DNA from: Peristeroidobacter soli
GTDB lineage: Bacteria > Pseudomonadota > Gammaproteobacteria > Steroidobacterales > Steroidobacteraceae
Direction: 5' to 3'
DNA: 64,000 bases
Assembly (NCBI RefSeq): GCF_004138485.1
Contig: NZ_RYEV01000005.1
Span: forward strand, 558,001-622,000
A program made the translations under genes and the position numbers. The notes under the pieces are model-generated. The model searched no databases. It was not told the DNA's origin and was given only the letters and a program-made list of their open reading frames with translations. Below are positions 22,918 to 44,091 of the stretch, in pieces. Numbering within the stretch: the first letter of the stretch is position 1; each line of letters opens with the position of its first letter.

Positions 22918-24522
22918 GTGACATTGCGCTCAGCCACCGTTGCATTCCTGTCGTTATCCGTCATCGCCAGCCCGCGGCTGCTGGCTCAGGAAGTCAACGC
23001 CGACACTCCGCAAGACAAGTTCGCCATCACCGAATACCGCGTGCTCGGCAACACCGTGCTGCCGGCGACGGCGATCGAAACGGTCGTCTATCCATTCCTG
23101 GGCGAAGGCAAGACCATCGCGGACGTCGAAGTGGTTCGCCAGGCGTTGGAGAAGCTCTATAAGGACCGGGGCTTCGGCACGGTGTTCGTGGACATTCCCG
23201 AGCAGACCGTCAACGAAGGCATCGTGCGCCTGAAAGTGACCGAGGGTCGTCTGGATCGCGTGCGTATCACCGGCGCGCGCTATTTCGCCAACGGCGCCAT
23301 TCGCAGTGAGCTCACATCGTTGCAGCCCGGCACTGTGTTGAGCCTGCCGGAGCTGCAGAATCAGTTGGGCGAAGTGAATCAGCAGTCGCGCGACCGGAGC
23401 ATCACGCCGGTGTTGAAGGCGGGGCGCTCGCCCGGCACGGTCGATATCGAGCTCAAAGTGCAGGACAGCCTGCCGGTTCACGGCAGCGTCGAAGTCAACG
23501 ATCGTTACAGCGCCAACACCACGCACACGCGCGCCAGCGTCAATCTCAGCTACGACAATCTGTGGCAGAAGTTCCATAGCCTGTCGTTGCAATACCAGAC
23601 CTCGCCCGAGGATCTGGATGAGACACGCGTGATCGCCGGCACGTATCTCATGCCGCTGTCCAACGGCAACCTGCTCGCGGTGTACGCGGTCGACACCAAC
23701 AGCGATTTCGCGGTCGTGAACACGGGCGGCGATCTGTCCGTGCTTGGCACGGGAAACATTTATGGCCTGCGTTACATCGCGCGTCTGCCGCTGCTCGGCG
23801 GCTATTCGCAGAACGTCACGCTGGGCGCCGACTACAAGGATTTCAAAGACGACATCGTGCTGTCGGACGGCAAGAACGACACCACGCCGATTCGTTACAT
23901 GAGCTGGACCGCCGGCTATAGCGGCGTGCTCGGCCGCGATGGCAGTACCACGGGGTTCAATCTGAATGCCAACTTCGGCATGCGCGGCGTGATCAACAAT
24001 CAGGCCGAATTCACCTACAAGCGCGCCGACGCCAACGCGAGCTTCTTTTATCTGCGCGGCGACGCCTCGCATCTGCAGAGCCTGTGGTCGGGTTCGGCGA
24101 TCTACGTGAAGGCCGTGGCGCAGTGGGCGCCGGATCCGCTGATCAGCAACGAGCAATTCGCGAGCGGCGGTGCCGAGGGCGTGCGCGGCTATGTCGAATC
24201 GGCGTTGATGGGCGACCGGGGTATCGGCGGCACCATCGAGCTGCGCTCGCCGTCGATGCATGCGTGGTTCGGCAACGTGGTTCGTCAGCTCACGACGTTC
24301 ATTTTCTACGATGCCGCGCACGTCACTCAGCTCGCGCAGGTCGACGACGACGGCAATCTGGTCGCCCGCGGCATCAATTTGTACAGCGCCGGCGCCGGCT
24401 TGCGCCTGACCGGATTCGGCGGCCTCGAGGCCGCGCTCGACTGGGCCTATCCACTGCGTGATTGGGAAGACGTTGAGAAGGGCGATTCGCGCATTCATTT
24501 CCGGGTGCGCTACGCGTTTTGA
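22918..24522 (+). CDS. TpsB outer-membrane transporter (ShlB/FhaC/HecB family)
   Basis: The secretion pore of a two-partner secretion system: 534 residues in the outer membrane. GTG 22918 is preceded by AGAAGGG and gives a signal peptide ending ...SPRLLAQ; the longer frame from 22801 would add 39 residues before it. Two POTRA domains (about 35-190) include FAITEYRVLGNTVLP and RLKVTEGRLDRVRITG. The C-terminal FhaC-type barrel (about 200-534) ends in phenylalanine (FRVRYAF), the usual outer-membrane assembly signal. It overlaps the reading frame of its exoprotein partner, whose ATG starts 12 bases downstream. Its cargo is the giant TpsA next to it. Confidence 0.93.
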   Translation: MTLRSATVAFLSLSVIASPRLLAQEVNADTPQDKFAITEYRVLGNTVLPATAIETVVYPFLGEGKTIADVEVVRQALEKLYKDRGFGTVFVDIPEQTVNEGIVRLKVTEGRLDRVRITGARYFANGAIRSELTSLQPGTVLSLPELQNQLGEVNQQSRDRSITPVLKAGRSPGTVDIELKVQDSLPVHGSVEVNDRYSANTTHTRASVNLSYDNLWQKFHSLSLQYQTSPEDLDETRVIAGTYLMPLSNGNLLAVYAVDTNSDFAVVNTGGDLSVLGTGNIYGLRYIARLPLLGGYSQNVTLGADYKDFKDDIVLSDGKNDTTPIRYMSWTAGYSGVLGRDGSTTGFNLNANFGMRGVINNQAEFTYKRADANASFFYLRGDASHLQSLWSGSAIYVKAVAQWAPDPLISNEQFASGGAEGVRGYVESALMGDRGIGGTIELRSPSMHAWFGNVVRQLTTFIFYDAAHVTQLAQVDDDGNLVARGINLYSAGAGLRLTGFGGLEAALDWAYPLRDWEDVEKGDSRIHFRVRYAF

Positions 24523-24533
24523 GGTTTCTGGAG

Positions 24534-27500
24534 ATGGGCATGGTTGACTCGGTGACGCAGGGAACGAGGGTTCGTGTGCTGACTCAGGCGGTGCGCGCCG
24601 TGCTGCGTGGAGTGTCGCTGTCCGCCACGGCCAGTTTGTTTGTATCGACGGTGCATGCCGACCCGCTGCCGGTGATCTGTGTCTCCGGTGCGACTTGCGG
24701 CAACAGCAACAGCGTCATCAACAACGCCTTGCAAGGCGTGTCGGGCATTGCCATCGCCGGCAACTCGATGACCATCAATCAAAACGCCGCCAATGCGGTC
24801 CTGCATTGGCGCAGTTTCGATATCGAGCGTGGCGCCAGCGTCACTTTCGTCCAGCCCGACAGCAATTCGGTGGCGCTCAACCGCATCTATCAGAACGGTG
24901 CGTCGCAGATCATGGGCAACCTGTCCGCCAACGGCCGCATCTATCTGCTCAATCAGAACGGCATCATGTTCGGCAACGGCGCAGTGGTGAACGTCGCCGG
25001 CCTGATCGCCAGCTCGCTGGATATTTCCAGCCTGGCGCTCAATGCCGATGGCAGCACCAATCTGCTCGCGGCCGGGCAGCGCAACGAGGCAGCGTTCCAG
25101 TTGTACCGGGATGCGGGCGGCAACGCATTGACCAGCGGCGATGTGACGGTCGGGCAGGGCGCCACCATTACCACCAGGGACGGCGGTCAGGTATTCATGT
25201 TCGCGCCGAACGTTTACAACTACGGCAAGATTGCCACTCCGGACGGGCAGACCGTGCTCGCCGCCGGCGATTCGGTCTATCTGGCGAGCAGCGCGGACAA
25301 CAATCTGCGCGGCATCTGGGTGGAAGTCGGCACCGGCGGTACCGTGGTCAACGGCGTCGAAGCCAATTCGGGCGTTACTGATAAAACACAGCTGGTCGGC
25401 CAGATCATCGCCGAGCGCGGCAACATCACGTTGGCTGGCGCGGCGGTCAATCAGTTGGGACGGCTCACCGCGACCACGTCGGTGAACGAGGGCGGCTCGA
25501 TCCGCTTGGTGGCGCGCGAGGACGGCTTCGTGCAGGCCGCAGCGGGCACATCGGTCACGCTGACCGCTCGCACTGGCGGCACGTTGGTTCTGGGCAGCAA
25601 CAGCGTCACGGAAGTGGGGCTCGACAACAGCACTGCGACCACTGTGGACAGCAATCCGCAGCCCGTGTCGCGGGTCGTGGGCATCGGCCGTCAGATCGTC
25701 ATGCAGGACAATGCGAGCATCATCACGCCCCATGGCGATGTGACCCTGGCTGCATGTGCCGATTGCAGCAGCCTCACCGATGTTTCCTTGGCCAAGGTGC
25801 ACGAGCTGGCCGACGAAACCAGTTCCTCATCCGACGGATCGAGACTGTTCATTGCCGCTGGCGCGTTGATCGATGTGTCCGGCGCGCACATCGACAAGAC
25901 CATGGAGAGCAACGTGCTCAGGGTCGAGCTGCGCGGCGACGAACTGGCCGACAGCGAGCTGCAGCGAGACGGCGCATTGCGCGGCGAAACCGTTTATATC
26001 GACATCCGTCAGACCGGCACGCGTGCGGACGGCTCGACCTGGGTCGGCAGCCCCGTGGGCGATCTCGGCGGCTGGGTAGGCGGCATCCAAAGAAATGTTC
26101 AGGAGCGCAGCCTGACCGGCGGCACCGTCAATCTGCTGTCCCGAGGCGATGCGATTCTCGAGCGCGGCTCCACCATCGACATCTCCGGCGGCTCGATCAA
26201 TTTCGCCGGCGGCCACATCAACACGTCCAACGTGATCGGCGCCGACGGCAAGGTCTACGACATCTCCAGGGCGATCGCCGATCGCAGCTATGTCGGCGTG
26301 ACCAACAGCGGCACTCATACCGTGTTCGACCGGCGTTGGGGCGTGACGCGCACCTATTTCACCGGTGGCACGCAGGGCCGTTACGAGCAAGGCTATGTCG
26401 AAGGCAAAGATGCCGGCACCGTGCAGATCATCGGTAGCCAGACGGTGCTGGATGGTGCGATCCGGGCGGAAACAGTGGCGGGACGCTATCAGCGCGAGCT
26501 GAGCGGTACCGTCAACGCTTCGGCGTTGTACCGGCCGTACGATGAGCTCGCGCTCAGCGGCACGCTCATTCTCGGCAAGACCTCCGCCAGTGGCGACCAA
26601 GCCGACTTCGCGGTCGGCGATGTGACAATTGCGAACGGTGCGTTCTCGGCGCTGGCGGCGGACTTCGATCCACTCACCGATTCGCTCGGCGATATTGGCA
26701 GCACGGTGGTGCTGAGGAGCGACTTGTTCGGTGCCGACCGTGTCGGCAACCTGACCTTGCGGGCCAATGGCGCTGTCACGATTGCCCCGGATGCGAATGT
26801 GACTCTGTCGTCCGGCGGCGCGATGAACGTAACGGCCGGCGCCATTGACGTCGGCGGCTCGGTGACGAGTCACGGTGGCCAGATCGCGCTCACGGCGCGA
26901 CCCACTTTCACCACGCCTGAGCTGGACGATGGGCTGGTGGTGAGAAGCGGTGCCCGGCTGGATACCAGCGGCACGTGGGTCAACGATGCCGCCAACGCCA
27001 ATGGTGGCAGCGTCGGCATGGCGCCAATGTCCATCGATGGCGGCAGTGTACAGTTGCAAGCACAACGCAGCTCGCTCGCGTTGGAGACCGGCAGCGTCAT
27101 CGACGTGTCGGGCGGCGCGCAGCTCACCGGCGATGGCAAGCTGATCGCCGGCGAGGCGGGGTCGATTGAATTGACCAACACCCAGTCGCTGGCCTCGAAT
27201 GGTGCGGTCACCTCTCTGACCCTGGATGGCGAGCTGCGCGGCTATGGATTCGAGAACGGCGGCAGTCTGTCGTTGACGACGGCCGGAGCATGCATCGCGG
27301 CGACGGTCACCGGCTGTGAACAAACCTCCGCGGGGACGTTGTGGCTCAGGCCGGAGTTCTTTGCATCGGGCGGCTTCAGCGGCTATTCCATCCTGAGCAA
27401 CCGCGGCGGCATCGAAGTCGCCGCGGACACGACCGTGACATTGCGTCAACAGAACTGGCTCGTGCCGCTGTCCGGCGATTTGAGCCGTTTCGCGACCGGC

Positions 27501-30500
27501 ACGTCGATCGATCGTATCGCAACGACAAGGTTGCTCGAGGACATCGAGCGCCAGGCGGTGGATCTGAAGCTGTGGGCCGAGCCCACGCGGCCGGGCTCGG
27601 ACGGCAGATACACGGATATAACTTTCGCCGATGCTCCCGATCTGATCATCCGCACCGGCGCACGCATCGAAGGAGAAGTCGGTGCGACCATCGATCTGAG
27701 CTCGACCAGTCGCTTGCTCATCGATGGCACGGTTTCCGCGGCGGCCGGCACCATCAAGCTGGGCTTGAGTGGCGGCCTGGCGATCGAGCCGACCAGCGCC
27801 AATCCGTATTTCGCCGACCAGGGCATCTGGCTCGGCAACAACGCACAGTTGCTGGCGCGTGGCGCGGCGGTCACGGAGGTGGACAGCCAAGGGCGCGTCA
27901 TCGGCGAAGTCCGCAATGGCGGCACCATCGCCATCGATGCCGATCGTGGTCACGTGATCACTTCCTCCGGCTCGCTCATCGATGTTTCCGGCACGTCGGC
28001 GGCGCTGTCCGTGAAGTCGGACAAACAAGGGCATTATCAGGTCCGGCAAGTCGCGTCGGCCGGTGGCCGGCTGGACATCGAAGCTGCCGAAGCCATTGTG
28101 ATCGGCGGCGACATCCGGGGCGAATCGGGAGAGCCGGGCAGGCTCGCGGCCGGCACGCTGCGCATCGCGCTGGACATGTCGCTGCGTAACGATCCAGGAC
28201 TGTCGCGTGCCTTTCCCGCCAACCTGCCGCTGTTCCCGGGCGGTGACCGCACCATCGAAATCACCCAACGCCCGCTCGACATCAGTTTTGGCGACTCGAC
28301 GCTGGTGGGCTACCAGGGTCGGGCCGTGGTGGCGGCGGATCAGATTGCCGAGGGCGGTTTCGATGCGCTCGAGCTCGATGCCACGACGGTGTGGGTGAAC
28401 GAAGGCGGCCTGTCGCCGAATGTGGTGCACACGGGACGCATCGAGTTCGATGGCGATGTTTCTCTCGCGCTCGCTCGTAGCGCGGTGCTGAATGCCGCGA
28501 TCATCGCGTCGGACGGTGGCAACGCGGTGTTGAGTGCGCCGCGAGTGGCCTTGGGCAACTCGAAAATCGATCTGAACAACGTTCAGTATCAGCCGCCGAC
28601 GCTGGCGGGTACTGGAACGTTGCGCGTCGACGCCGGGCAGATCGACGTTATCGGCAGCAGCGTTCTGCAAGGCTTTGCCTCGACCACTCTTCGATCCAGC
28701 GGAGACTTGCGGCTGACCGGCGTGCTGATCGATCCGCTCGGCGATCAGGGATTGAAGGTGCTGCAAGGTTCGCTGCGCACCGCAGGCGATCTCACTTTGA
28801 GCGCAGCTCAGGTGTATCCGACGACGATGTCCGAGTTCACGGTGGCCGCCGGCGTCGGTGGCACCGATGGAACATTGCGTATCGAACAGAACGGCGTCGC
28901 GGGCGATGCGCTGTCCGCGGGCGGCGCATTGACGCTGTCGGCGCCCAATGTCGTGCAATCGGGCACGGTACGGGCACCCTTCGGCACCATCACGATCGAT
29001 TCGCCGAGTATCACGCTCGCCGATGGCAGCGTGACATCCACCAGCGGCGCGGGCTTGGACGTGCTGTACGGCGAGACCGAAGGCGGTCTCAACTGGGTGT
29101 ATGTGCTGGGCGGCGACAAAATCGTCTACGGCGCGAACGGCCGGCAGATCTCCACTCAGCGCATCGAGCTCAACGGCGACAACGTCGCTCTGGAGGAGGG
29201 CGCGGTACTGGACGTGAGCGGCGGTGGCAATTTGCTCGCCACCGAATTCAATTCCGGAACCACCGGCAAGCAGGATGTTTTGGGCAAGGACAACACCGCT
29301 GGCAACTTCGCCATTCTGCCGGCGAACAGTCTGGCGGCCGCGGCCTATGACGAGACCATCTACACCGTGGCGGAGTTCGAGGGCGGCAAGAGTGTTTATC
29401 TCTCAGGCACGAAGGATCTGCCGGCTGGTGAATACATCGTGCTGCCGGCCAAGTACGCACTCTTGCCGGGCGCGTATCTGGTGCGGCCGGTCTCTGGGTA
29501 TGGAGATATCACCGCGGCTGAGTCGTACAGCCTGGCCGACGGCAGCAACGTCGTTTCCGGTTATTACACCTACACCGGCAGCGGTCTGCGCGACGGCGCG
29601 CGCACCTCGGGATTCGCGGTCCTCAAAGGCACGCAGGTTCAGAACAAAGCCAGGTACACGCTGGCCAACGCCAACGAGTTTTTCGCCCCGCCGGACGGTG
29701 AGCTGCTCACTCAGCGTCTGCCGAAGGACGCCGGCACCGTGGCGATTACCGCCACTGAGTCGCTGATCCTCCAAGGAACATTGCAGGCCGACGTCGCTCA
29801 GGGCGGCCGCGGCGCGGCTCTGGATATCGCGAGCAGTGCCATTCAAGTGGTCGCCGACGCCGGCAATGCCGGTAACGCCGGTGGCGCGCTCGTTCTGGAC
29901 GCAGCGGATTTGAATGCGCTCGGTGCCGAGTCGATTCTGTTGGGCGGCGTGCGCCAGGAAGACGGGCAGGGACTGGATATCGATACCAGGTCCTCGAATG
30001 TATCGATCGCGGCAGGCGCAGCGCTGCAGGCGCCGGAAGTGATGCTGGTCGCGACCGATACAGTCACGGTCCAGCAGAATGCGAGCGTCACCGCGACCGG
30101 TGTGGAAGTGCGCTCGCAGGATATCCACTTGAGTGGCGACGGCGCCTTTGTGCGCGTGGCTACGGGCGAAGCGGCGAACGTCGCACGCACCAACTCCACC
30201 AACAATGGTCGCGTGGTCCTCGCTGATGGCTCGACGCTGACCGCTACATCCGGCTCCATCAGCCTGGAATCCGCGGGCGATGCGCAGCTCGCCGGTGCGT
30301 TGTCGGCGGTCGGCGGCGAAGTGTCCATGACGGGTAACGTGATCAGCCTGGGCAACGTGGATCCCTCGGTCAGCGGCTGGGTGCTGGATGCGGCGCAGTT
30401 GTCGCAACTCGACGCGGGTACATTGAGCCTGAACAGTCGCAGCACCATCGACTGGTACGGCAACGTCTCACTCGCACTCACCAATCTGAGTCTGAGCGCT

Positions 30501-33500
30501 CGGGCGATCCGAGGTTATGACGATGGAGCAGTGTCGATTGCCGCGAGTGGCGACGTCGCTTTCCGTGGCGGCGGGGCGCTGATCGATCCAGTCGATTCCG
30601 TCGCCGGCGGTCAATTCCATCTCACTGCGAACAATGTGATTTTCGACGACGGCGCGCTCGAGCTGTCCGGCTTCGATTCGGTCGCGCTGTTGGCTGCTCG
30701 CGAAGTGCGCGCCGAGCAAACGACGACGGTCAGTATCGTTGGCGGCGGTCTGCAGCTCGGCGCGCAGCGTATTACAACCCGGTCGGGCGTGGATCTGTCG
30801 ATCACCGCCGGTGGTACGGCCACGCTCTCGAACAGCGCTTCGACGCAGGCGCTCGCCGCGGTCAACGATCTTGGCGGCTCGTTCACGTTGAATGCCAATG
30901 CGATCGAATTGGCCACCCGGATCGAGTTGCCCTCGGGTCTGGTGACGTTGAACGCGACCGACGCCACCCAAGGCGGCATCACGCTGAGCGGTAATGCGGC
31001 GATCGATGTCAGCGGTCGAAGCACGCAACTGGGCGACCAGGTGGCTTACAGCCACGGTGGCAAGGTGAATCTGGAAACCGTCAGCGGCAATCTGGCGCTG
31101 GCCGCAGGTTCGAGCATCGATGTTTCCGCGAACGGCGGCGCGAACGCCGGCAGCATCGAGCTGACGGCCGCCAATGGCAATCTGCAACTGGCTGGCACGC
31201 TCGATGGCAGCGCGGAGGGCGCGGGCTCCGCTGGCAGCTTCAGCGGCGATGCGCAGCAACTCGGTGATTTCAGCGCGCTGACACAACAGCTCGCCAGCAG
31301 CGGCTTCGCGGGCGATTTGAGTTTCCGTCAGCGCGGCGCTGGTGATCTGACGGTGGCAAGTGGTGCCACTGTGCGCGGCACGTCGGTGTCGATGACGGCC
31401 GATCAGGGCAGCGTCGTGGTCGCCGGCGGCATCGTTGCTCACGACGACGACGGTGGTCGCATCAATCTGTCGGCCCGCAATGGCATGACGATCAGTGGCA
31501 CGCTCGATGCGCGCGCGACCGGCACTACGGAGCGTAACGGTCGCATCGATCTGAATGTGACCAACGGCGGCCTGAATGTGACCAACGGCGCGGTAATCGC
31601 CACGGTTGCCTCGGGCGCCAAGCAAGGCTCGAGCGGGGACGGCGATGTTTCCATTCGTCTGCCGCAGTCGTCGTTGCTGACTGTCATCGATGCCGATACT
31701 GCCAACGACGCCGTGCATCTTGGCGGCGACTGGAGCAGAACGGCCGACGTGAGTGTCGAGGGCTTCGCGGTGCATGTCGATGCCGACGGCATCCTCGATG
31801 GCAACGACACTGTCGCCATGGCTGGGAATGCCATTTATGACGCCGCTGTTGCCTTTGCCGCGCGCACCGATGAGATCGCGACGGCCCTGAGCAATCCGAG
31901 CCTGACCGGGCTCGACGTCCTCACCGGCATCGAAATTCAATCCGGCGCCAGCGACGGCAGCCTGTCCTTGAACGCGGATTGGAACATGGCCGCGTGGCGC
32001 TTCGCCGACGCTTCGGGCGGGGCTCCGAAGTCCGGCGTGCTCACGCTACGCGCCGCGGGCAATCTCACTTTCAACGAGTCGCTCAGCGACGGCTTCAGCG
32101 ACCAGAACGACTTCACGCTCGACCTCGACCCGAACTTCGGCGACAGCTGGTCCTACAACCTGGTCGCCGGCGCGGATACCGCCAGCGCCAATGTCATGGC
32201 GACGCAAGCGTCGAATGCTGTCGGCAGCGTTCTCATCAACGGCGTCGACAGTTCTTCGGAAGCTGGCTACACCGTCGTGCGCACCGGCACCGGCAGCATC
32301 GACGTGGCTGCGGCTTCGGACATCGTGTTGAGCAACGACGCGGCGATGATTTATACCGCGGGCGAAGCCAGCAACGGAATGATCTACGGCACCGTGCGAG
32401 GCCAGGGCAATCAGCTCGGCGGGTTCTACTATCCGGCCAACGGCGGCGACATCACGCTCACCGCGGGGCGCGACGTGATCGGTGCGCCGACCCGTCAGCT
32501 GCTCACCGAATGGCTGTGGCGCATCGGCAAGGATTCGGAAACCACCGGCAATCCGAGCCGCTCCACCGCCTGGACCGTCAACTTCGCGAAATTCCACCAG
32601 GGGATCGGCGCGCTCGCCGGCGGCGATGTCAGCGTGACCGCGGGCAACGACGTTCGCGACTTGTCCGTGGCGAGCACCACGATCGGCCGGCAGCGAACCA
32701 ATCCCACCAACGACAAGACCGCCGCGGCCAACGATCTCGAAGTGATCGGTGGCGGCAATGTCAGGGTCGCATCGGGTGGCGACGTGCTCGGCGGCACTCA
32801 CTACTCCGGCCGCGGCCAGATCGAGTTGCAGGCGGGTGGTGAGGTGGGCAAGAGCCAGCAGACCAGCTTCGGGCCGATGCTGCTGCTCGGCGATACCCAG
32901 GCCAAGGTCGCCGCGCGGCAGGATGTGAGTCTCGGCGGCGTGGCGACGCCGACTCTGTTGCCGCAGGGAACCACACAAGGATCGCTGGCATCGACGGATA
33001 GCATGTTCTCCACCTACTCGGCGCAGAGCTCGTTGACGGTCGAGTCCACGGCAGGCGACGTATCGCTGGTTCCCGATAAAGGCGCGATCAACGACTACTA
33101 CGCGTGGAGCGGCAACAACGCCAACCAGAGCGAGCTGGCATTCACGCTGTTGCCAGGTACCGTCGACATGCTCGCTCTGCGGGGCGGCGCGAGAGTGACG
33201 GGCACGCTGTTGCCGAACGAGAACGGCGCTCTGAGCGTGCATGCCTATCGGGATGTGGATTTCGACGTCATCGTGTCCGATGTCGATGTCGACGCATTGC
33301 CCGACCAGGACCGGCCGGCGGCCAGCGGTGCGTTCGATCGATTCGGCTCCGACCTGTACACGGCGCTGACTCAATGGAATGGCAACATCAAACAGATCTT
33401 CAACGCGCAGACGCCGGTGAGGCAGCGGGCCGCGGAGGCGGGCACGCTGCTCTCCTCGCGCATCGTTTCCGCCAACGGCGACGTCAAGGGCTCCGGCTAT

Positions 33501-34913: not shown

Positions 34914-34915
34914 TC

Positions 34916-35479: not shown

Positions 35480-35483
35480 TTGC

Positions 35484-35638: not shown

Positions 35639-37453
35639 GTGCGCAAGTTACTTGCAGTGCTGTTCTGTTGTCTGCCGATGGCGAGTCACGCCTGGTGGAA
35701 TGACGAGTGGAATTTCCGCAAGGAAATCACCTTTGATTCGACCCCCGCGGCCGCCGACATCGCGGCGACGCCGGTGGATGTGCCGGTGCTGATTCGCCTG
35801 CACCTCGGCAACTTCGGCTATTTCGGCGACACGCAGCCCGACGGCAGCGACATGCGCGTGGTGGCGGGCGATGACAAGACGCCGCTGAAATTCCACATCG
35901 AGCGTTACGATCCCACCAATCAGATGGCGTTCATCTGGGTACGCGTGCCGCGCATCGCCGGCGCCAGCAACGCCGAAAAGATCTATCTCTACTACGGCAA
36001 TCAGAAGGCCACGACGGCGCCGCCGGCTGCCGATACCTACGACGCCACGCAGGCGGCGGTTTATCACTTCGGTCCGGACGACGCGGCGCTCGCCGACAGC
36101 ACGGCCAACGACAACGACGCGGCCTCGTCGACTGCTGAAATGACACCGGCTTCCTTGATCGGGGGCGGCGCGAAGTTCGCGGGCAGCTCGGTCATCAGCA
36201 AGCCGTCGACTGCGTCGCTGCGCCTGATTCCCGCCAAGGGCGGCACGCTGTCCGCCTGGGTGCGCATCGACCAGCCGCAAGGCAATGCTCAAGTGGTCGG
36301 CCTGGATGATCAGGGCAAGCGTTGGGTCATCGGCATTCGTGGCGCGCAGGTTTATTCCGCGCTGACCGGCGCGAGTGGAGAGGTCGAGGCGCTGAGCCCG
36401 GAGCAGATCGCGACCGGTGCCTGGCATCACGTCGCCGCGACGGTGGGCGGCGGCAAATTGATTCTGTTCGTCGACGGCAAGGAAGCAGCGAACGTGGCTG
36501 CGCAGCCGGTCGAGGTCGCTGGTACGTTGAACATCGGCAACAGCACCGCGGGCAACAGCGGCCTGGTCGGTGAAGTCGACGAAGTGCAGGTCGCCAACAG
36601 TGCGCGTGCACCGGAATGGATCGCGGCCTCGGCGAAGGCACAAGGCCAGGAATCGCCGCTGGTGGTGTACGGCGCCGACGCACAGAAAGAAGGCGGCGAT
36701 GTTTCCTATTTCAAGGTGACGATGCAGAACGTCACCGTCGACGGCTGGGTGGTCATCATCATTCTGGCCATCATGTTCGTGATCGCGTTGCTGGTCATGA
36801 TCGCCAAGGCGCTGTACCTGTCCAAGATCAAGAAACAGAACGCCGCGTTCCTGAAGGAATATCAGGCCATGCACGGCGATCCGACTGCGCTGGATCACGA
36901 AGAGAGCAAGGACGAGGCGGGCGATGCCGCGCTGGATGAATCGCCGTTCATGCCGCACTTCGGCGAGAAGGGCGAAGCGAAGTTCAAGTTCTCCACTCTG
37001 TATCGTCTGTATCACCACGGCGTGCAGCAGATGGTCGGACGCGTCGGCTTGAAGTCGGCGGGCGCCCGCGCGGCGACGACGCTCACGCCGCAGTCGATCG
37101 AAGCGATCCGCGCCACCATGGACGCCACCATGGTGCGCATGACACAGAAACTACAGTCGCAGATGGTGTTGCTCTCCATCGCCATCGCCGGCGGTCCGTT
37201 CCTGGGTCTGCTCGGCACGGTCGTCGGCGTGATGATCACGTTCGCGGCCATCGCGGCCAGCGGCGACGTTAACGTCAACGCGATCGCACCTGGTATCGCC
37301 GCAGCGCTGGCCGCGACCGTCGCCGGCCTCGGCGTCGCGATCCCGGCCTTGTTCGGCTACAACTGGTTGAACACGCAGATCAAGGAAGTGAACGCCGACA
37401 TGCGCGTGTTCGTCGACGAGTTCGTTACGCGAGTCGCGGAGCACTACAGCTAA
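35639..37453 (+). CDS. DUF2341-LamG-ExbB fusion (MotA/TolQ/ExbB proton channel family)
   Basis: A 604-residue inner-membrane protein. Signal peptide 1-18, then DUF2341 (about 19-125, WWNDEWNFRKEITFD ... KIYLYYGN). A LamG/concanavalin-like domain follows (about 140-345, GGTLSAWVRID, WHHVAATVGGGKLILFVDGKE). Then comes a membrane helix (369-391), a cytoplasmic stretch with charged residues (395-505), and the MotA/TolQ/ExbB core with two further helices (about 512-540 and 550-577, including GGPFLGLLGTVVGVM). ExbB proteins use the proton gradient with ExbD to drive TonB. Here the periplasmic side carries domains common in glycan binding. Its stop overlaps the ExbD start (TAATG). GTG 35639 lacks a strong ribosome binding site. 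Confidence 0.9.
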   Translation: MRKLLAVLFCCLPMASHAWWNDEWNFRKEITFDSTPAAADIAATPVDVPVLIRLHLGNFGYFGDTQPDGSDMRVVAGDDKTPLKFHIERYDPTNQMAFIWVRVPRIAGASNAEKIYLYYGNQKATTAPPAADTYDATQAAVYHFGPDDAALADSTANDNDAASSTAEMTPASLIGGGAKFAGSSVISKPSTASLRLIPAKGGTLSAWVRIDQPQGNAQVVGLDDQGKRWVIGIRGAQVYSALTGASGEVEALSPEQIATGAWHHVAATVGGGKLILFVDGKEAANVAAQPVEVAGTLNIGNSTAGNSGLVGEVDEVQVANSARAPEWIAASAKAQGQESPLVVYGADAQKEGGDVSYFKVTMQNVTVDGWVVIIILAIMFVIALLVMIAKALYLSKIKKQNAAFLKEYQAMHGDPTALDHEESKDEAGDAALDESPFMPHFGEKGEAKFKFSTLYRLYHHGVQQMVGRVGLKSAGARAATTLTPQSIEAIRATMDATMVRMTQKLQSQMVLLSIAIAGGPFLGLLGTVVGVMITFAAIAASGDVNVNAIAPGIAAALAATVAGLGVAIPALFGYNWLNTQIKEVNADMRVFVDEFVTRVAEHYS

Positions 37454-37860
37454 TGTCTGCATCAGCCGAAGAGAAAGACGTATACGACGAGATCAACATC
37501 ACCCCGATGCTCGATCTCGCGTATGTGCTGCTGGTGATCTTCATCATCATGACCACCGCGTCGGTTCAGGGCATCAAGGTGAACCTGCCCAAGGCGAGCG
37601 AGACGCCGGCGCTGGCGAAGCCTAAAACCAAGGCGATTTCCATCACCGCCGACGGCACGGTCTATCTCGACACGTATCCAGTCACGCTGCCGGAGCTCGA
37701 GAATCTGCTGCGTCAGTATAAGGCCCAGGATCCGGAGCTGCCGGTGATCATCAAAGCCGACTCCACGATTCAGTATCAGAAGGTGGTCGACGTGCTCGAC
37801 CTGGTGGGACGGCTGGAGATCACCCAACTCGGCCTCGTGACGCAGCGACTGGTCAAGTAG
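37453..37860 (+). CDS. exbD: ExbD/TolR family biopolymer transport protein
   Basis: A 135-residue inner-membrane protein with a short cytoplasmic N-terminus. A single membrane helix (about 20-42) contains the essential aspartate D21 in the family motif NITPMLDLAYVLLVIFIIM. A periplasmic ExbD domain makes up the rest. It pairs with the ExbB-type protein encoded immediately upstream (one-base overlap) to form a proton-driven motor. The TonB-like gene follows after 13 bases, completing an ExbB-ExbD-TonB set. Confidence 0.95.
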   Translation: MSASAEEKDVYDEINITPMLDLAYVLLVIFIIMTTASVQGIKVNLPKASETPALAKPKTKAISITADGTVYLDTYPVTLPELENLLRQYKAQDPELPVIIKADSTIQYQKVVDVLDLVGRLEITQLGLVTQRLVK

Positions 37861-37873
37861 CGGAAGGCGTGTT

Positions 37874-38503
37874 GTGAACAAACACCGCTGGCAACGCTAC
37901 GTGCCGCTCGCCGCCGGCACGGTCATTGTGCTCGTGGTCGGTGTGCTGCTGATCAAGTTCGTGATGAACCTGATGGCGCAGAAGCCAGAGGGGCCGCAGC
38001 GTCAGGTGGCGCAGGTGGTGAAGATCGTGCGACCGCCCGAGGATCAACCGCCGCCGCCGCCGCCGCCACCGGAAGAGAAGATCGAGGAGCCGCTCGAACA
38101 GCAGGAGCCGGACCAGGCCCCTGAAGAAGCTGCGCCTGCCGAGAGTCTGGGCGTGGATGCCGAGGGTAGCGCCGGCGGCGACGGCTTCGGTCTCGCCGCT
38201 CGCAAGGGCGGTCGCGATCTGGTCGGCACGGGCACGGCGCCGTTTCGCTGGTACACCGATCTGGTCGCGAAGAGTCTGGAAGGCTGCTTCTCTGAAGACG
38301 AAGCGGTCCGGCGCGGCAGTTACAAGGTCGACGTGAAAGTGCAGGTCGACAAGGACGGCACCATGCACGTGCTCGACCTGGTCGGCAGCTCGGGTAACAC
38401 CGCGATCGATACGGCGATCCGTAACCGCAAGGGCTGCAACATCGGTCAGGGCCGGCCGGTGGAAGTGCCGGCGCTGGCGACGGTGCGGGTCACCTCGCGC
38501 TGA
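37874..38503 (+). CDS. TonB-like energy transducer
   Basis: A 209-residue protein with the TonB layout: N-terminal membrane anchor (about 10-32), proline-rich spacer with eight consecutive prolines then a Glu/Gln-rich stretch (about 55-90), and a C-terminal domain (about 125-205) with KVDVKVQVDKDGTMHVLDLV, SSG and AIRN. Two cysteines in this domain (EGCFSED and RKGCNIG) could form a disulfide. The usual YP at the start of the TonB domain is replaced by WYTD. GTG 37874 follows ExbD by 13 bases. It would transmit energy from ExbB/ExbD to an outer-membrane partner, which could be the TpsB pore or the nearby porin (inference). Confidence 0.82.
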   Translation: MNKHRWQRYVPLAAGTVIVLVVGVLLIKFVMNLMAQKPEGPQRQVAQVVKIVRPPEDQPPPPPPPPEEKIEEPLEQQEPDQAPEEAAPAESLGVDAEGSAGGDGFGLAARKGGRDLVGTGTAPFRWYTDLVAKSLEGCFSEDEAVRRGSYKVDVKVQVDKDGTMHVLDLVGSSGNTAIDTAIRNRKGCNIGQGRPVEVPALATVRVTSR

Positions 38504-38541
38504 CAAACATATTTGCGAATTGGCATTACAAGAGAATGGGA

Positions 38542-40209
38542 ATGTCGAACCGAACCCGATTGAGCGTGACGATCGCCGCCATCCTGGCGTGCGCCGCTCA
38601 CAGCACCGCGTCCGCGCAGACCAGCGAAACGCAATCGCTGCAGGAGCTGCGTAACACCGTCATCAATCTGCTGGACGGCCTGGTGAAGCGCGGCGTGATC
38701 ACGCGCGAGCAGGCGGAGCAGATGGTCGCCGACGCGCAGTCGAAGGCTGAGACCGATGCCAAGGCGAAGGCCGACGTCGACGCGGCGGAGAAAGATGCCG
38801 TGCGCGTCACTTACGTCCCGCAGATCGTGCGCGATGAAATCAGCAAACAAGTGCGCGCCGAGTTGAAGCCGGAAGTCACCAAGGAAGTGCTCGCCCAGGC
38901 CAAGGAAGAGAAGTGGGGCGTGCCGGGCGCGCTGCCGGACTGGGTCAGTGGCATGCAGCTGTTTGGCGACATCCGGCTGCGTGAGGAGCGCTATGACCAG
39001 GAAATGCCGACCGTGCCGTCGGACTGCGGGCTGGGGCCGGATTTCTGTGTGCTCGACTACCAGGCCATCAATGAGGCCGGCGGCATCGCGGTCAATGACC
39101 TGAGCAGCATCTATCGAAATATCACCACCGAGCGGGTCCGCACGCGCGTTCGCTTGCGCGCCGGGCTGAAGGCTCAGGTCAGCGATGGCATCACCGCCGT
39201 CGTGCGTCTGGCCACGGGCAATCCCGGCGATCCGGTGTCGACCAATCAAACGCTCGGTCAGTACGGCAGCCGCTTCGACATCGCGGTCGATCAGGCTTAT
39301 CTGCGCTTCGACGCCGGCGCTCATTCGGAGCTGCCATGGATGACGGTGTATGGCGGTCGCAATCCGAACCCGTTCGTGTCCACCGATCTGGTATGGGATG
39401 CCGATCTGAACTTCGACGGCGTCGCCGGCACGTGGCGACTCGGCTTCGGCGGCGCAGGCGCCGAGCCCAGCTATGCATTCATCACCGCGGGCGCGTTCCC
39501 GCTTCAGGAAATCGAGCTGAGCACCGATGACAAGTGGCTGTACGCCGGACAGCTGGGCGTGGATTGGTCGTGGGCGGATCGTGCGCGCTTCAAGTTCGCC
39601 GCGGCTTATTACTACTTCGAGAACATCACCGGCATCCGTAATCCGGTGCTCGACAGCCGGGTGTTCGATTACACCGCGCCCAAGTTCATGCAGAAGGGCA
39701 ACACGCTGTTCGACATCCGCAACGACAACAACACGTCCACTTATCTCTTTGCGCTGGCCACCGAGTATCACCTGGCGAATGCCACCGCGATGCTCGAAGT
39801 GCCGATGGGAAGTTACAAGTTGTTCGTGACCGGCGACTACGTGCGCAACCTCGGTTATGACGAGAGCCAGGTGCTGGCGATCGCAGCGGTGGATCGCACG
39901 ACGGATGGCCGGGAGCGTAGCACGGGCTATCAGGGCGAGATCGGTTTCGGTACGGCTCGCACCGGCAGCCGCGGCGACTGGCGTGCGTACGTCGCTTACA
40001 AACATCTCGAGCGCGACGCGGTGGTCGACGCGTTCACGGACTCCGACTTCAATCTCGGCGGCACCGACGCCAAGGGTTATGTGTTGCGCGCCGACTGGTG
40101 GTTCCGAAATCGAGCCGCGCTGTCGTTGCGTTACATCAGCACCAAGTCCATCGACGCGGTGCCGGTGAACGTGGACACCGCGATGCTCGACATCAACGGT
40201 TCGTTCTAG
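38542..40209 (+). CDS. putative porin (Porin_5-type outer-membrane barrel)
   Basis: A 555-residue outer-membrane protein. The signal peptide ends ...STASAQ. A helical N-terminal part (about 25-130) has the recurring LLDGLVKRGVITREQAEQMV motif of this porin family and a coiled-coil stretch. A large barrel follows (DWVSGMQLFGDIRLREERYD onward) ending in F (MLDINGSF). ATG 38542 is preferred because AGAG at 38531 is seven bases away; ATG 38536 is too close to it. It follows the TonB-like gene by 38 bases, so it may be the outer-membrane partner energised or organised by this system. Confidence 0.85.
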   Translation: MSNRTRLSVTIAAILACAAHSTASAQTSETQSLQELRNTVINLLDGLVKRGVITREQAEQMVADAQSKAETDAKAKADVDAAEKDAVRVTYVPQIVRDEISKQVRAELKPEVTKEVLAQAKEEKWGVPGALPDWVSGMQLFGDIRLREERYDQEMPTVPSDCGLGPDFCVLDYQAINEAGGIAVNDLSSIYRNITTERVRTRVRLRAGLKAQVSDGITAVVRLATGNPGDPVSTNQTLGQYGSRFDIAVDQAYLRFDAGAHSELPWMTVYGGRNPNPFVSTDLVWDADLNFDGVAGTWRLGFGGAGAEPSYAFITAGAFPLQEIELSTDDKWLYAGQLGVDWSWADRARFKFAAAYYYFENITGIRNPVLDSRVFDYTAPKFMQKGNTLFDIRNDNNTSTYLFALATEYHLANATAMLEVPMGSYKLFVTGDYVRNLGYDESQVLAIAAVDRTTDGRERSTGYQGEIGFGTARTGSRGDWRAYVAYKHLERDAVVDAFTDSDFNLGGTDAKGYVLRADWWFRNRAALSLRYISTKSIDAVPVNVDTAMLDINGSF

Positions 40210-40233
40210 GACTTGCGTTAGGAGAGACCGATC

Positions 40234-40878
40234 ATGACCGTTCTGTCACGACTGACGCTGGGCGCTTTGAGCTTGCTGCTGGCATCCGGCGCCATGGCGC
40301 AGGTACAGCGCAGCGGCAACGACAATGCTCGCGTCATGCAGCAGCTTCAGCAGCTCACGGCGGAGAAGGCCGCGATGCAGGCCGAGAACACCAAGCTCAA
40401 GACGGATGTGGACAACCTGAAGGCGCAGCTGGCCAGTGCCGCTGCGGCGTTGTCCGCTTCGGAGCAGCGTGCGAAGAAGGTTGCAGCCGGAGCAACGGCC
40501 AAGGAATCGGCGGCCGCGCAGGAGCTCAACGACGCGTTGACTCGCAATCGCTCGCAGATGCAGGAACTCGTGACCCGGTATCGCGAGACTGGCGAGACGC
40601 TGAAGACGGTCGAAACCGAGCGCGACAAGTTGCGCGCGGAGACCTCGACTCAGCAGCGCGACCTCAAGACCTGCGTCGATCGCAACGCCGGCATGTATCT
40701 GCTGACCGATGAGATTCTGCGCAAAGTCGAAGACCGTGGCGTGTGGAGCTCGCTGACCGACAAGGAGCCGTTCACCAGGATCAGCCGCACCCGCCTGGAA
40801 AATCTGATCGACGATTACCGCTATCGGGTCGACGAGCTGCGGGTCAAGGACAAGACCGCGGTGGCTCCGGCGAATTGA
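40234..40878 (+). CDS. periplasmic coiled-coil protein of the secretion locus
   Basis: A 214-residue exported protein. Signal peptide 1-22 (ends ASGAMA), then a long coiled coil (about 30-145) rich in Ala, Gln, Lys and Glu heptads. A conserved-looking C-terminal segment includes LKTCVDRNAGMYLLTDEILRK and LIDDYRYRVDELR. A good ribosome binding site (TAGGAGAG) precedes ATG 40234. It lies 24 bases after the porin gene and 11 before the TPR lipoprotein gene, so all three are probably co-transcribed. It could act as a periplasmic spacer or chaperone. No family is recognised with certainty. Confidence 0.75.
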   Translation: MTVLSRLTLGALSLLLASGAMAQVQRSGNDNARVMQQLQQLTAEKAAMQAENTKLKTDVDNLKAQLASAAAALSASEQRAKKVAAGATAKESAAAQELNDALTRNRSQMQELVTRYRETGETLKTVETERDKLRAETSTQQRDLKTCVDRNAGMYLLTDEILRKVEDRGVWSSLTDKEPFTRISRTRLENLIDDYRYRVDELRVKDKTAVAPAN

Positions 40879-40889
40879 GAGAGGTTGCC

Positions 40890-43313
40890 ATGACGATTTC
40901 ACGCCTGGTCCGATGGACGGCGATCGTTGCCACGGTCGTCGCATCCGCAGCCTGCAGCAATGGCGAAGCGCGCAAGGTCGGTTATCTGGAGCGCGGCGAG
41001 AAATATTTCGCCGCAGCGAATTACGACAAGGCTCGTATCGAAGCACGCAACGCGTTGCAGATCGATCCGAACTACGTCGAGGCGCGTTATCTCGCCGGTC
41101 GCGTGGCGGAGAAAAAGGCCGAGATTCGTGAAGCGGCGGGTAACTACCAGGCCGTGCTCGACGTGAATCCGAAGTTCAGTCCGGCACGCGCGGCGCTGGC
41201 CCGGTTGCTGCTGTTCGGTGGCATGCCCGACAAGAGCCTGGAGCTGGTCGAGGCCGGCCTCAAAGACGATCCGCAGAACGCCGCGCTGTTGACCGTGCGC
41301 GGCGCCGTGCAGGCACAGCGGGGACTCATCCCCGCGGCGCTTGAAGATGCCGAGACCGCCATCAAGGTCGCGCCCAACGATGAGTTCACCATCTCGCTGC
41401 TGGCGTCGCTGTACAAGCAGAGCGCTCGTCTGGACAAGGCCATCGAAGTGATCAATCGCGGGCTCGAACAGCTGCCGAAGAATGTCGAGCTGCGCATCGT
41501 GCTGGCCGATCTGGAAGCGAGCCGTGAGAACTATGCCGCCGTGGAGCAGCAGCTCAAGCAAGTCGTGACACTGGAGCCGAAGAGTTTCTCGCACCACGCC
41601 CGTCTGGCGCGGTTCTATCTGTCCCGCAAGGATCTGCCGAAGGCCGAGGCTACCTGGCGCGACGCCATTGCCGCGGTGGCCGACGGCAAGAGCGAGCGCA
41701 AGGGCAGCGATATCGCGCCCAGGCTCGCGCTGATCGATCTGCTCTGGTCGCAGCGGGGCGAGGAGGCGGGCTTGCAGGAGATGCAGGCCATGATGGCCAA
41801 GGACCCCAAGGATGCCGAGCTGAAGCTGGCCATCGGCGGCTATCTGGAAAAGCAGGGCAAGGCCGACGAAGCCGAAAAGCTGTATCAGGAGGTGTCGAAG
41901 GCCGACGACAAGGATGCGCAGGGATTGAATGCGCGCACTCGCCTGGCCTCGCTGTACCTGAAGCGCAATGACATCGAACGTGCCCAGTCCTTGATCAATC
42001 AGGTGCTCGAAGAGAATCCGCGTGACAACGATGCACTGGCTCTGCGTGCTAACCTCGCATTACAAAAAGGCGATACCAGCACGGCCATCACCGATCTGCG
42101 CGCCGTGTTGCGCGACCAGCCGAATTCGACGCCGGTAATGCGGGCGCTGGCGCAGGCCCATCTGAAGAACAATGAAGTCGCGCTCGCGGAAGAAACATTG
42201 CGCAGCGCCCTGCAAAGCAATCCGAGCGAGGCGCCGACGCGCAAGGCGCTGGCTCAGCTGCTGTTGCAACAAGGCAAGGCGGACCAGGCGCGACTCATCC
42301 TGGATCCGGTCGCCGGCATGCAAGGACTGAGCGACGATCCGGAGATTCTGGACGCGCAGTTCAAGGCGCAACTGGCGACCAGGGATTTCGCTGCCGCTCA
42401 GCAAACAGCGGAGAAGGCCCAGCAGTTGCGACCCAAGGCAGCGATGGGCTGGTATTACGCGGGTCTGGTGGCGGAAACGCAGAAGAATGCCGAGCTCGCG
42501 CGCCAGAACTATGAAAAGGCGTTGGAACTGCAACCGCAAGTCAACGAGCCGCTGACCGCGCTGGTGCGTCTGGATGCAGTCGCGAAAGACAACAAGCGAG
42601 CACTCGCACGCCTCGCGACCGCCATCGAGCGCACACCGAACAACGCCGTGGCACACAATCTGCGCGGCGAGCTGCTCATCGCCGAACGCCAGCCGGATGC
42701 AGCGATCGGCGCGTTCGAAACGGCGATCGAGCATGCCCCGGAGTGGTGGATGCCGTATCGGGGGCTGGCGTTGGCGCAGTTGTCACAGAAACAGAACGAC
42801 GCGGCGGTCGCTGCGTTCCAGCGCGGTATCGAGCGCACCAAGGCAGGCGCTCTGTCCATCGATCTTGCGGCGCTATATGAGCGTGCCGGCAAGCCCGATG
42901 ACGCGATCAAAGTTTATGAGCAATGGGTGAGCCGCGAGCCCAAGTCGTCGCTCGCCAACAGAAACCTGGCGATGCTGTTGTTGAACTATCGCGAAGACCG
43001 CACCAGCGTGCAGCGCGCGACCCAGCTGGCGGAGAGTCTGGCGAATTCCAACGATCCGGCCGCGCTCGAGATTCGCGGCTGGGCCAAGTACAAGAACGGC
43101 GATTTCCAGGGCGCGGTGAACCTGCTGCGTGACGCTGCGTCCAACAGCAAGGAGTCCGCGACGGTTCGCTATCACCTCGGCATGGCGCAGCTGCGAGCGG
43201 GCGACAAGGCCGGCGCGCGGGAAAGCCTGCAAGCCGCGCTCGACCACGGCAAGCCGTTCTTCGGTATCGACGAGGCGCGCGCCACGCTCGATCAGCTCAA
43301 ACAATCCGGTTGA
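40890..43313 (+). CDS. large TPR-repeat lipoprotein (PrsT-like)
   Basis: An 807-residue protein. A signal sequence with a lipobox-like end (VASAAC, lipidated C22) is followed by about twenty tetratricopeptide repeats across the rest (for example YFAAANYDKARIEARNALQI and LALQKGDTSTAITDLRAVLR). It resembles the PEP-CTERM/exosortase-associated TPR lipoprotein PrsT in length and layout, but here it is embedded in a two-partner secretion locus. ATG 40890 follows GAGAGAGG; the frame continues upstream but overlaps the previous gene. It likely scaffolds protein assembly at the periplasmic face of a membrane. Its last bases almost touch the DsbC-like gene. Confidence 0.85.
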   Translation: MTISRLVRWTAIVATVVASAACSNGEARKVGYLERGEKYFAAANYDKARIEARNALQIDPNYVEARYLAGRVAEKKAEIREAAGNYQAVLDVNPKFSPARAALARLLLFGGMPDKSLELVEAGLKDDPQNAALLTVRGAVQAQRGLIPAALEDAETAIKVAPNDEFTISLLASLYKQSARLDKAIEVINRGLEQLPKNVELRIVLADLEASRENYAAVEQQLKQVVTLEPKSFSHHARLARFYLSRKDLPKAEATWRDAIAAVADGKSERKGSDIAPRLALIDLLWSQRGEEAGLQEMQAMMAKDPKDAELKLAIGGYLEKQGKADEAEKLYQEVSKADDKDAQGLNARTRLASLYLKRNDIERAQSLINQVLEENPRDNDALALRANLALQKGDTSTAITDLRAVLRDQPNSTPVMRALAQAHLKNNEVALAEETLRSALQSNPSEAPTRKALAQLLLQQGKADQARLILDPVAGMQGLSDDPEILDAQFKAQLATRDFAAAQQTAEKAQQLRPKAAMGWYYAGLVAETQKNAELARQNYEKALELQPQVNEPLTALVRLDAVAKDNKRALARLATAIERTPNNAVAHNLRGELLIAERQPDAAIGAFETAIEHAPEWWMPYRGLALAQLSQKQNDAAVAAFQRGIERTKAGALSIDLAALYERAGKPDDAIKVYEQWVSREPKSSLANRNLAMLLLNYREDRTSVQRATQLAESLANSNDPAALEIRGWAKYKNGDFQGAVNLLRDAASNSKESATVRYHLGMAQLRAGDKAGARESLQAALDHGKPFFGIDEARATLDQLKQSG

Positions 43314-43318
43314 AGATC

Positions 43319-44050
43319 ATGAACAAGATTTTTCCGATCGCGCTCACAGTGCTGGGCGCGATGTATTCGGCTGTGCTGCCCGCGGCCGACGATGTGGCCA
43401 CGACACTGCGGAAAACGCTGGCGGAGCGCTTTCCCGACATCAAGGTCGAGCGCGTCGGGCCGTCGGTGTTGCCCGGCCTGTACGAAATCGTCACCCCGAG
43501 CGAGATCGTTTATTCCGACGCCAGGGGCGACCATCTGGTGCTCGGCCAGATCATGGATGTGAAGACGCGCGAGAACCTGACGCAGACGCGCTGGAACGAG
43601 CTCAACAAAGTGGACTTCAATGCGCTGCCGTTCGAGCAGGCCATCAAACTGGTCAAGGGGCAGGGGCGGCGCAAGTTCGCGATCTTCGAGGATCCGTTCT
43701 GTCCGTTCTGTCAGGAGCTCGAGAGAACGCTGGAGAGCCTCGACGACGTGACCGTTTATATCTTCCTGTACCCGCTGGAAGGCTTGCATCCGGGCGCCTC
43801 GGATGCGGCACGCGACATCTGGTGCGCGAGCGACCGCGCGGCGGCGTGGAGCAACTGGATGTTGAACAAGAAAGCACCGCCCGAGGCGGCGAATTGCAAG
43901 GACACGCCGGTCGCGAACCTGGTGGCGCTGGGCGAGAAGCTGCGCATCAACTCCACGCCGACCCTGTTCTTTCCGGACGGCTCGCGCGTCCCCGGCGCGA
44001 TCGCGCTCGATAAATTAGAAACAAAGATCGCCGCGACCAACAAACGGTAG
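43319..44050 (+). CDS. DsbC-like periplasmic thioredoxin-fold disulfide isomerase
   Basis: A 243-residue exported protein. The signal peptide ends near residue 22. An N-terminal dimerisation-like domain (about 25-100) contains PSVLPGLYEIVTPSEIVYSDARG, as in DsbC, and the thioredoxin-like domain has the redox motif C128-P-F-C131. A further pair of cysteines (WCAS and NCKD) follows, and INSTPTLFFPDG is the cis-proline region. It shuffles or reduces disulfides of exported proteins. As the last gene of the locus, five bases after the TPR gene, its likely client is the TpsA with four local Cys pairs or the Cys-containing TonB-like protein (inference). Confidence 0.88.
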   Translation: MNKIFPIALTVLGAMYSAVLPAADDVATTLRKTLAERFPDIKVERVGPSVLPGLYEIVTPSEIVYSDARGDHLVLGQIMDVKTRENLTQTRWNELNKVDFNALPFEQAIKLVKGQGRRKFAIFEDPFCPFCQELERTLESLDDVTVYIFLYPLEGLHPGASDAARDIWCASDRAAAWSNWMLNKKAPPEAANCKDTPVANLVALGEKLRINSTPTLFFPDGSRVPGAIALDKLETKIAATNKR

Positions 44051-44091
44051 TAAATGCCGGCGCGCGTCGGGAGTCTTTACGCTCGCGACGC

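Follow-up and report, generated by a model that had tools for sequence, protein, structure and literature searches.

A two-partner secretion locus of Peristeroidobacter soli and its recurrent association with an ExbB/ExbD/TonB motor and a Porin_5 porin

Two-partner secretion (TPS) is textbook export without an energy source, and what drives the giant chain across is an open question. In the excerpts of PMC5422565 (here and below, papers are cited from parts of their text), type V translocation is powered by no hydrolysable energy source or gradient, and ExbB goes unmentioned. What could an ExbB/ExbD/TonB proton motor do in such a system? We addressed this question for a locus of Peristeroidobacter soli at 22801-44050 of a stretch of 64,000 nucleotides (assembly GCF_004138485.1, contig NZ_RYEV01000005.1, positions 558,001 to 622,000; this whole stretch is called the window, and coordinates refer to it unless a locus is named). 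By sequence, seven kinds of gene of this locus recur elsewhere as one neighbourhood: TpsB, DUF3739-containing TpsA, DUF2341-LamG-ExbB, ExbD (one or two), TonB, Porin_5 and a coiled-coil protein; motor, porin and TPS pair very probably form one functional module. An earlier note on this DNA (the original prediction) had described ten adjacent same-strand genes. All ten open frames are present on the + strand in the order given there, and the main domain assignments hold by Pfam:

22801..24522, + strand: TpsB outer-membrane transporter, 573 amino acids (POTRA_2 E 2e-17, ShlB E 3e-19, Pfam)
24534..34913, + strand: TpsA giant exoprotein, 3459 amino acids from the ATG at 24534 (TPS domain PF05860, 77 bits; DUF3739, PF12545)
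34821..34856, + strand: TpsA tail motif LSWLDVFVIGLG, residues 3430-3441, with a Cys pair after it (strict pattern)
34886..35479, + strand: locus-specific protein of 197 amino acids, partly helical and with a single likely membrane helix (neither Pfam nor NCBIfam gives a match)
35639..37453, + strand: ExbB-type motor subunit with DUF2341 and Laminin_G_3 (periplasmic) and MotA_ExbB (Pfam)
37453..37860, + strand: ExbD motor subunit with the Asp of NITPMLDLAYV (PF02472 E 1e-30)
37874..38503, + strand: TonB-like protein with an N-terminal hydrophobic helix, a Pro-rich linker and a TonB_2 C-terminal domain (PF13103 E 3e-5)
38536..40209, + strand: Porin_5 porin with an N-terminal helical periplasmic domain, a plugless modelled barrel and a VRVxYVP-type segment (PF16930 E 4e-151; model)
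40234..40878, + strand: periplasmic coiled-coil protein, conserved in its C-terminal part as C..KN..LY ... EPF....R (alignment of relatives)
40890..43313, + strand: tetratricopeptide repeat (TPR) lipoprotein, PrsT-like, accessory (TPR repeats; homologues beside other modules)
43319..44050, + strand: DsbC-like disulfide isomerase, accessory (DsbC_N PF10411 and thioredoxin PF13098)

Three markers of this set were searched independently in 369 genomes of the class: DUF3739 with a score over the cut-off, the fusion ExbB at E<=1e-60 and full-length Porin_5 at 466 bits or more. They were found in 23, 22 and 24 genomes, respectively, with pairwise overlaps of 21, 23 and 22 and with all three in 21 genomes (pairwise hypergeometric p 6e-31 to 1e-35, genome relatedness being ignored); a full-length Porin_5 with neither DUF3739 nor fusion ExbB occurred in none of the 369. 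Weaker, mostly partial Porin_5 matches (at most 118 bits, in 30 other genomes) and a DUF3739 match below the cut-off in genome G609 were excluded from the count. The genomes with two of the three markers were G492 and G586 (DUF3739 and porin; G586 is 64% complete) and G495 (ExbB and porin; 85% complete). In 19 of the 21 genomes the three markers lie at most 30 kb apart on one contig, and in the other two they are split between contigs. At phylum level, a DUF3739 search of 398 genomes gave matches in 14 (P. soli included) and, with the window, 19 loci. The fusion ExbB was in view at 12 of these, which as a rule also carry TpsB, ExbD, a TonB-like gene and Porin_5, and often the coiled-coil gene. 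Further stretches, from neighbouring or other contigs, added the motors of G200 (C105), G130 and G284, and the fusion ExbB was found in all 13 other DUF3739 genomes of this sample (in G284 its second half only, at a contig end). In the reverse search 18 of 19 further fusion-ExbB genomes contained DUF3739.

We also scanned GTDB contigs with an ExbB alignment and took the best 80 of the 300 relatives listed as loci, a set biased in favour of the module, from which the query had been taken. Where there was room, ExbD was present in 75 of 75 loci, TonB in 74 of 74, the porin in 72 of 73 and the coiled-coil gene in 69 of 72. A TPS gene was in view at 75 of the 80 loci and directly before ExbB (within 600 bases) at 62, and the porin directly follows tonB in most. 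Loci with a TPS gene came from methanotrophs, Rhodoferax, Burkholderia, Bradyrhizobium, Sphingobium, Caulobacter, Pseudomonas, Spartobacteria and Opitutaceae. Gene order is largely kept in Gamma-, Beta- and Alphaproteobacteria and in Verrucomicrobia, and therefore is not unique to this genome, so that the first of the conditions set to refute the original prediction does not hold. Five loci showed no TPS gene. Two of them are short, L100 and the Myxococcaceae contig L088, which holds just ExbB and ExbD; in L070 the sequence stops 6.8 kb upstream, and L080 and L149 extend ~10 kb to each side. P. soli itself has a second DUF3739 locus with TpsB, ExbB, ExbD and porin, to which clustering adds TonB and the coiled-coil protein; the 20 kb read around each of its four TPS loci without DUF3739 contained no motor genes. 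Mirror-tree correlations were 0.81 for TpsB and porin, 0.69 for ExbB and TpsB and 0.32 for ExbB and the TpsA C-terminus, values that leave the species tree uncontrolled and that we did not count as evidence.

The claim that motor and TPS genes are associated beyond chance is thus borne out, both by marker co-occurrence in the 369 genomes and by linked loci in several classes. The ten-gene unit has to be narrowed: seven genes recur together, and those for the TPR lipoprotein, the DsbC-like protein and the 197-amino-acid protein are, by sequence comparison, accessory and lineage-specific. Pseudomonas aeruginosa, cited earlier as the precedent, does have the pdtA/pdtB-exbB2-exbD2 layout, but the association has been known beyond it since 2009, when PUMA3 homologues in six further genomes were described in association with TPS, ExbBD and PA0696 homologues, always with PUMA3 regulators (PMC2729926); the neighbourhood is therefore not wholly new. 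A literature search that left out most subscription journals yielded neither a published role for the motor together with the porin nor a mention of 'DUF3739', in line with the earlier statement that the function of the extra genes appears undescribed.

The motor part of ExbB scored best against TolQ among solved chains, and its periplasmic part was nearest to LamG-like and similar domains; a GTG start retains the signal peptide of the fusion. T527 and T560, which we take to be the channel threonines, are invariant in the 11 sequences aligned (a pattern count of these threonines, 63 of 80, was too crude and was set aside). The conserved Asp of ExbD was detected by pattern in 87 of 94 sequences; by eye it is present in five of the seven misses and was not seen in two. 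Two ExbDs occur in 14 of the 80 GTDB loci. DUF2341 has been described as an ExbB-family appendage of unknown function (PMC12505986), and in another system the periplasmic extension of ExbB contacts the C-terminal domain of HasB, a TonB paralogue (PMC9008036). The TonB-like protein of the window (37874-38503) carries a Cys pair in its C-terminal domain; in 73 of 75 relatives the last 110 residues are free of Cys. Pfam found no TonB-dependent receptor domain among the window genes scanned (14752 to 50254), and the gene after tonB encodes Porin_5 rather than such a receptor.

The model of the porin (predicted local distance difference test, pLDDT, 83) shows helices followed by a barrel of 16 long strands by our own count, without a plug. 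Its sequence has no match in the PDB at E<=1. With Foldseek the attachment porin OmpM1 of Veillonella came first (E 8e-15, TM-score 0.41 by query and 0.71 by target length), and MOMP, AlgE, DcaP and general porins scored close behind. A strand-like segment of the VRVxYVP type lies on a flexible stretch ahead of the barrel; a strict pattern finds it in 33 of 87 porins and a looser one in 54 of 73, with variants by eye in many other rows. V89, R90, V91, Y93 and P95 are conserved to at least 90% in an alignment of 42 porins, a figure biased by the choice of rows, which are the window porin and 41 of the 54 that match the pattern. By its sequence this segment could be the location of a TonB box.

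Two features of the TPS proteins at these loci were compared with other TpsBs and TpsAs. In a by-eye comparison (30 of 42 places readable, three BamA-like rows left out) an H1-like plug helix before POTRA1 was seen in none of 14 motor-linked TpsBs, and the TpsB of the window showed none; among 13 further TpsBs encoded in these genomes, 8 had one. The second feature is the end of TpsA. The C-terminal 340 residues were modelled (pLDDT 79) as a beta-solenoid that stops near residue 265 of this segment, with values under 50 at residues 268-324; according to this model the solenoid gives way to a disordered tail. A fold search with the C-terminus gave no significant match (best E 0.26). A conserved strand-like motif within the low-scoring stretch, approximately [ILV]xVxVLGFG[DE], matches in strict form 47 of 58 motor-linked tails, compared with 2.9% of shuffled tails, 37 of 1455 windows from TpsA bodies and none of the 12 complete tails of TpsAs without DUF3739 from the same 14 genomes. 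Most of the 11 tails missed by the strict pattern are near variants by eye, for example NLLLEFLGFGSG. The motif lies 1 to 65 residues from the TpsA end, and some tails carry a second copy (VQVLGAG). We regard this tail strand as a candidate handle.

TpsA of the window has two Cys residues 8 and 15 residues from its end. Because the operon also holds a DsbC gene, we considered a Cys hook, i.e. anchoring of the HxuA type, of which HMW1 and CdrA are presumably further cases. As a general rule it was rejected: the pair is found in a minority of tails, and G019 has DsbC and no pair.

Taken together, we read the locus as a TPS variant that brings its own Ton motor, which would act on TpsA at a late stage of export, at anchoring or at release, and put the probability of this reading at about one half. 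As TPS proteins generally do, TpsA would enter TpsB via its N-terminal TPS domain and fold its solenoid on the outside. Its final ~75 residues (unfolded linker and conserved strand) would stay in the periplasm as a handle or anchor, and the ExbBD motor would pull through TonB on this tail, or on a TpsB/porin assembly that holds it. Such a pull might complete export, bring about the anchored state or free TpsA. Motor and outer membrane would be linked by the porin, with its helical periplasmic extension and plugless barrel, together with the coiled-coil protein and the LamG domain of ExbB; PpiC, DsbC or TPR proteins would be lineage-specific helpers. Precedents for the reading are the TonB-dependent secretion of PopC (PMC6434023) and the proposals that HxuA sits anchored in its TpsB and that a step of its system draws on TonB energy (PMC4873976). 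A narrower version, in which a type Vb branch is driven by the proton motive force, TonB grips the TpsA tail strand (and perhaps also the VRVxYVP segment of the porin) and the motor completes, locks or reverses export, is a tentative and rather doubtful proposal. A TPS branch regularly accompanied by a proton motor and a porin of its own makes the question of what drives TPS testable through gene deletions. If true, the reading would assign a function to DUF2341-ExbB motors, Porin_5 and DUF3739 and would bear on the uncharacterised exbB2-exbD2-tonB4 genes of P. aeruginosa.

Several observations weigh against a motor for TpsA export. No energy source is needed for export by the characterised TPS systems, nor for translocation in reconstituted ones (PMC5422565). 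Transposon mutants of tonB (PA0695) and PA0696 in P. aeruginosa were of wild-type virulence in zebrafish, an assay in which TpsA export was not the readout (PMC2729926). Export has no obvious need for a dedicated porin. The tail pattern was written after the tails had been inspected, and the tails of relatives are not independent; a Cys pair suited to C-terminal anchoring is present in a minority of tails (12 of 39 complete tails of the GTDB loci and 3 of 20 others including the window). DUF3739 TpsAs of G379 (C17), G200 (C124) and G284 (C24) lack a motor gene in the 31-39 kb fetched; each of these genomes holds one motor elsewhere, and a single motor may work for more than one TpsA. The motor genes of G268 are on a different contig from TpsB, porin and coiled coil. 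ExbB-ExbD-TonB trios also exist without a porin and far from the DUF3739 locus of the genome (L177, L178), and a third extra trio (L179), next to a TPS-like fragment, is ~22 kb away from the main module of G509. These lone trios and the 5 of 80 loci without a TPS gene mean that this type of motor has other clients; full-length Porin_5, unlike the trio, was found in the class sample only in genomes with DUF3739 or the fusion ExbB.

The main rival is uptake as in HxuCBA: TpsA would be exported unaided and act as a surface catcher of a nutrient, perhaps a phosphorylated one, and the motor would energise uptake through Porin_5. The confinement of the full-length porin, in the class sample, to genomes with DUF3739 or fusion ExbB and its place directly after tonB in most of the GTDB loci speak for this, as do its N-terminal segment on a flexible stretch (a possible TonB-box place), the pairing of TPS with TonB-driven uptake in HxuA/HxuB/HxuC (PMC4873976), the PBP-like and type II secretion genes that adjoin some loci (from clusters; Pfam-checked in L035 only) and the control of the P. 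aeruginosa pdt locus by PhoB (PMC4971064, PMC7035377). However, the porin model is an open barrel without a plug, so that no gate is visible for TonB to open. The recurrent neighbour clusters checked contained no inner-membrane importer, and pho-box-like matches in the window were at chance level. We consider uptake unlikely. It is improbable that the locus encodes an envelope-spanning mechanical or attachment structure in which the motor moves or tensions a surface fibre while porin and helical stalk anchor the machine, comparable to gliding motors or OmpM tethering. OmpM1 as first Foldseek match, the nearly constant coiled-coil partner (69 of 72 loci) and the likeness of the motor part to TolQ point in this direction, but the barrel likeness is generic, with many porins scoring nearby and a TM-score of 0.41 by query length, and a Pfam scan of the porin shows no peptidoglycan-binding or SLH domain.

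Cell-surface signalling, with the Ton genes serving a circuit of STN, extracytoplasmic function (ECF) sigma and FecR-like proteins (VreA/VreI/VreR) that senses TpsA or a nutrient, would account for the STN, ECF and FecR-like genes beside a number of loci and for VreA, a signalling domain joined to a TolA/TonB-like domain (PMC2729926). Against this, L073-L084 carry the motor with no such regulator in view, neither STN nor FecR matched any of the genes scanned in the window (14752 to 50254), no window gene falls into the ECF and FecR clusters, and VreA is dispensable for sigma-VreI activation (PMC7035377); we regard this explanation as very unlikely. Finally, the genes might be co-regulated neighbours with no joint mechanism: TpsA follows TpsB in some loci and the coiled-coil gene in others, or lies at a distance, and the trios also occur alone. 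Since co-occurrence and proximity hold across many orders, this is hardly credible.

Returning to the window, the ten genes are likely one transcription unit. TpsB and TpsA are separated by 11 bases, the gene for the 197-amino-acid protein overlaps TpsA by 28 bases, 159 bases precede exbB, and downstream of exbB neighbours overlap by 1 base or leave gaps of 5-32 bases; the next gene after dsbC, for a VPLPA-CTERM protein, is 447 bases away. A promoter and terminator scan of 34700-45600 gave no match on the + strand, which says little since the host promoters are unknown. The start of TpsB, formerly placed at 22918, moves to 22801, where the longest frame begins, and 22918 is a possible internal start. 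The 'HEAT-like membrane protein' of the original prediction retains its likely membrane helix; the HEAT assignment is unproven, and tblastn at E 0.01 found no homologue of this 197-amino-acid protein in loci L030-L149. No reliable family was found for the coiled-coil protein. The TPR lipoprotein is nearest to PrsT of XrtA/PEP-CTERM systems with a score under the cut-off of that NCBIfam model, and homologues adjoin the module in L070, L073, L074, L076 and L084. A DsbC homologue lies ~5 kb beyond the module of G019. Clusters of PpiC-type foldases and of YbjN proteins stand beside the module in 24 and 16 of the 80 loci, respectively (one member of each Pfam-confirmed), and a recurring foldase beside TPS genes is indirectly consistent with a role in export.

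Other genes around the modules are recorded here as observations. Upstream in the window there are a hybrid histidine kinase and response regulator (14752-18020), whose cluster mates lie near the module in the second P. soli locus (G000b) and in G360, and a 5'-nucleotidase/metallophosphoesterase gene (19722-21533). Downstream, VPLPA/PEP-CTERM-type proteins are encoded at 44498-49169 beside the PrsT-like lipoprotein; the closest relatives, L070 and L071, adjoin apparent polysaccharide export and chain-length genes and PEP-CTERM-like proteins, as judged by eye. A secreted protein of 542 amino acids (45402-47033) has homologues directly upstream of TpsB in G019 (L043) and G360 (L049) and near the module in L088 and L095; its assignment as PstS-like was dropped as unproven, with no Pfam match even at E 1. 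In L035 (4-6412), type II secretion genes (secretin, GspE, GspF) and a PBP-like protein stand directly upstream of TpsA, an arrangement that is PUMA3/Hxc-like. The two-lobed VreA design of a signalling domain and a TolA/TonB-like domain was described in 2009 (PMC2729926), and proteins of L129 (16438-17358), G379b and G200a are VreA-like, with an STN domain and a C-terminal part that clusters with the TonB-like genes. The trios of L177 (7149-12143) and L178 (3081-10805) adjoin V-type ATPase-like genes, with no TPS or porin gene in view (Pfam-checked in L177 only).

Among known systems, P. aeruginosa has the same layout in PdtA/PdtB-exbB2-exbD2-tonB4-PA0696-PA0697: a TPS pair, ExbB, ExbD, TonB, a putative outer-membrane porin and a signal-peptide protein. 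From gene order, and not from the P. aeruginosa sequences, PA0696 and PA0697 would be members of the Porin_5 and coiled-coil families. The promoter PphdA transcribes phdA, pdtB, exbB2D2, tonB4 and PA0696-PA0701, and the motor genes were termed a 'still uncharacterized putative TonB system' (PMC4971064, PMC7035377); pdtA, which precedes phdA-pdtB, has its own promoter (PMC4971064, PMC7035377, PMC2729926). In P. soli TpsA lies between TpsB and ExbB, TPR and DsbC genes are added, and no PUMA3 genes were found among the window genes scanned, whereas the P. aeruginosa locus is accompanied by PUMA3, Hxc type II secretion, YbjN and PpiC. Pseudomonas loci among L121-L146 have the TpsB-ExbB-ExbD-TonB-Porin_5-coiled coil families in common with the window, and YbjN, PpiC and DUF772/Phd-like genes recur there.

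HxuCBA of Haemophilus influenzae likewise ties a TPS pair to the Ton system. HxuA is thought to be anchored in its TpsB by a C-terminal Cys pair, with which the window TpsA also ends, and one step of the Hxu system was proposed to need TonB energy (PMC4873976). There, however, HxuC is a TonB-dependent receptor in a three-gene operon without a motor, whereas P. soli co-encodes the motor and its barrel is modelled as plugless. In the Oar/PopC system of Myxococcus xanthus, ExbB/ExbD/TonB are needed for protein secretion across the outer membrane, with two ExbDs as in 14 of the 80 loci, and PopC secretion is TonB-dependent (PMC6434023); it differs in having a TonB-dependent transporter instead of TpsB and a protease as cargo. 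With type Vb secretion at large the locus shares the POTRA/Omp85 TpsB and the TPS-domain TpsA; its TpsB, in which no H1 plug helix was evident by eye, may differ in this respect, and motor, porin and coiled coil set it apart as regular companions.

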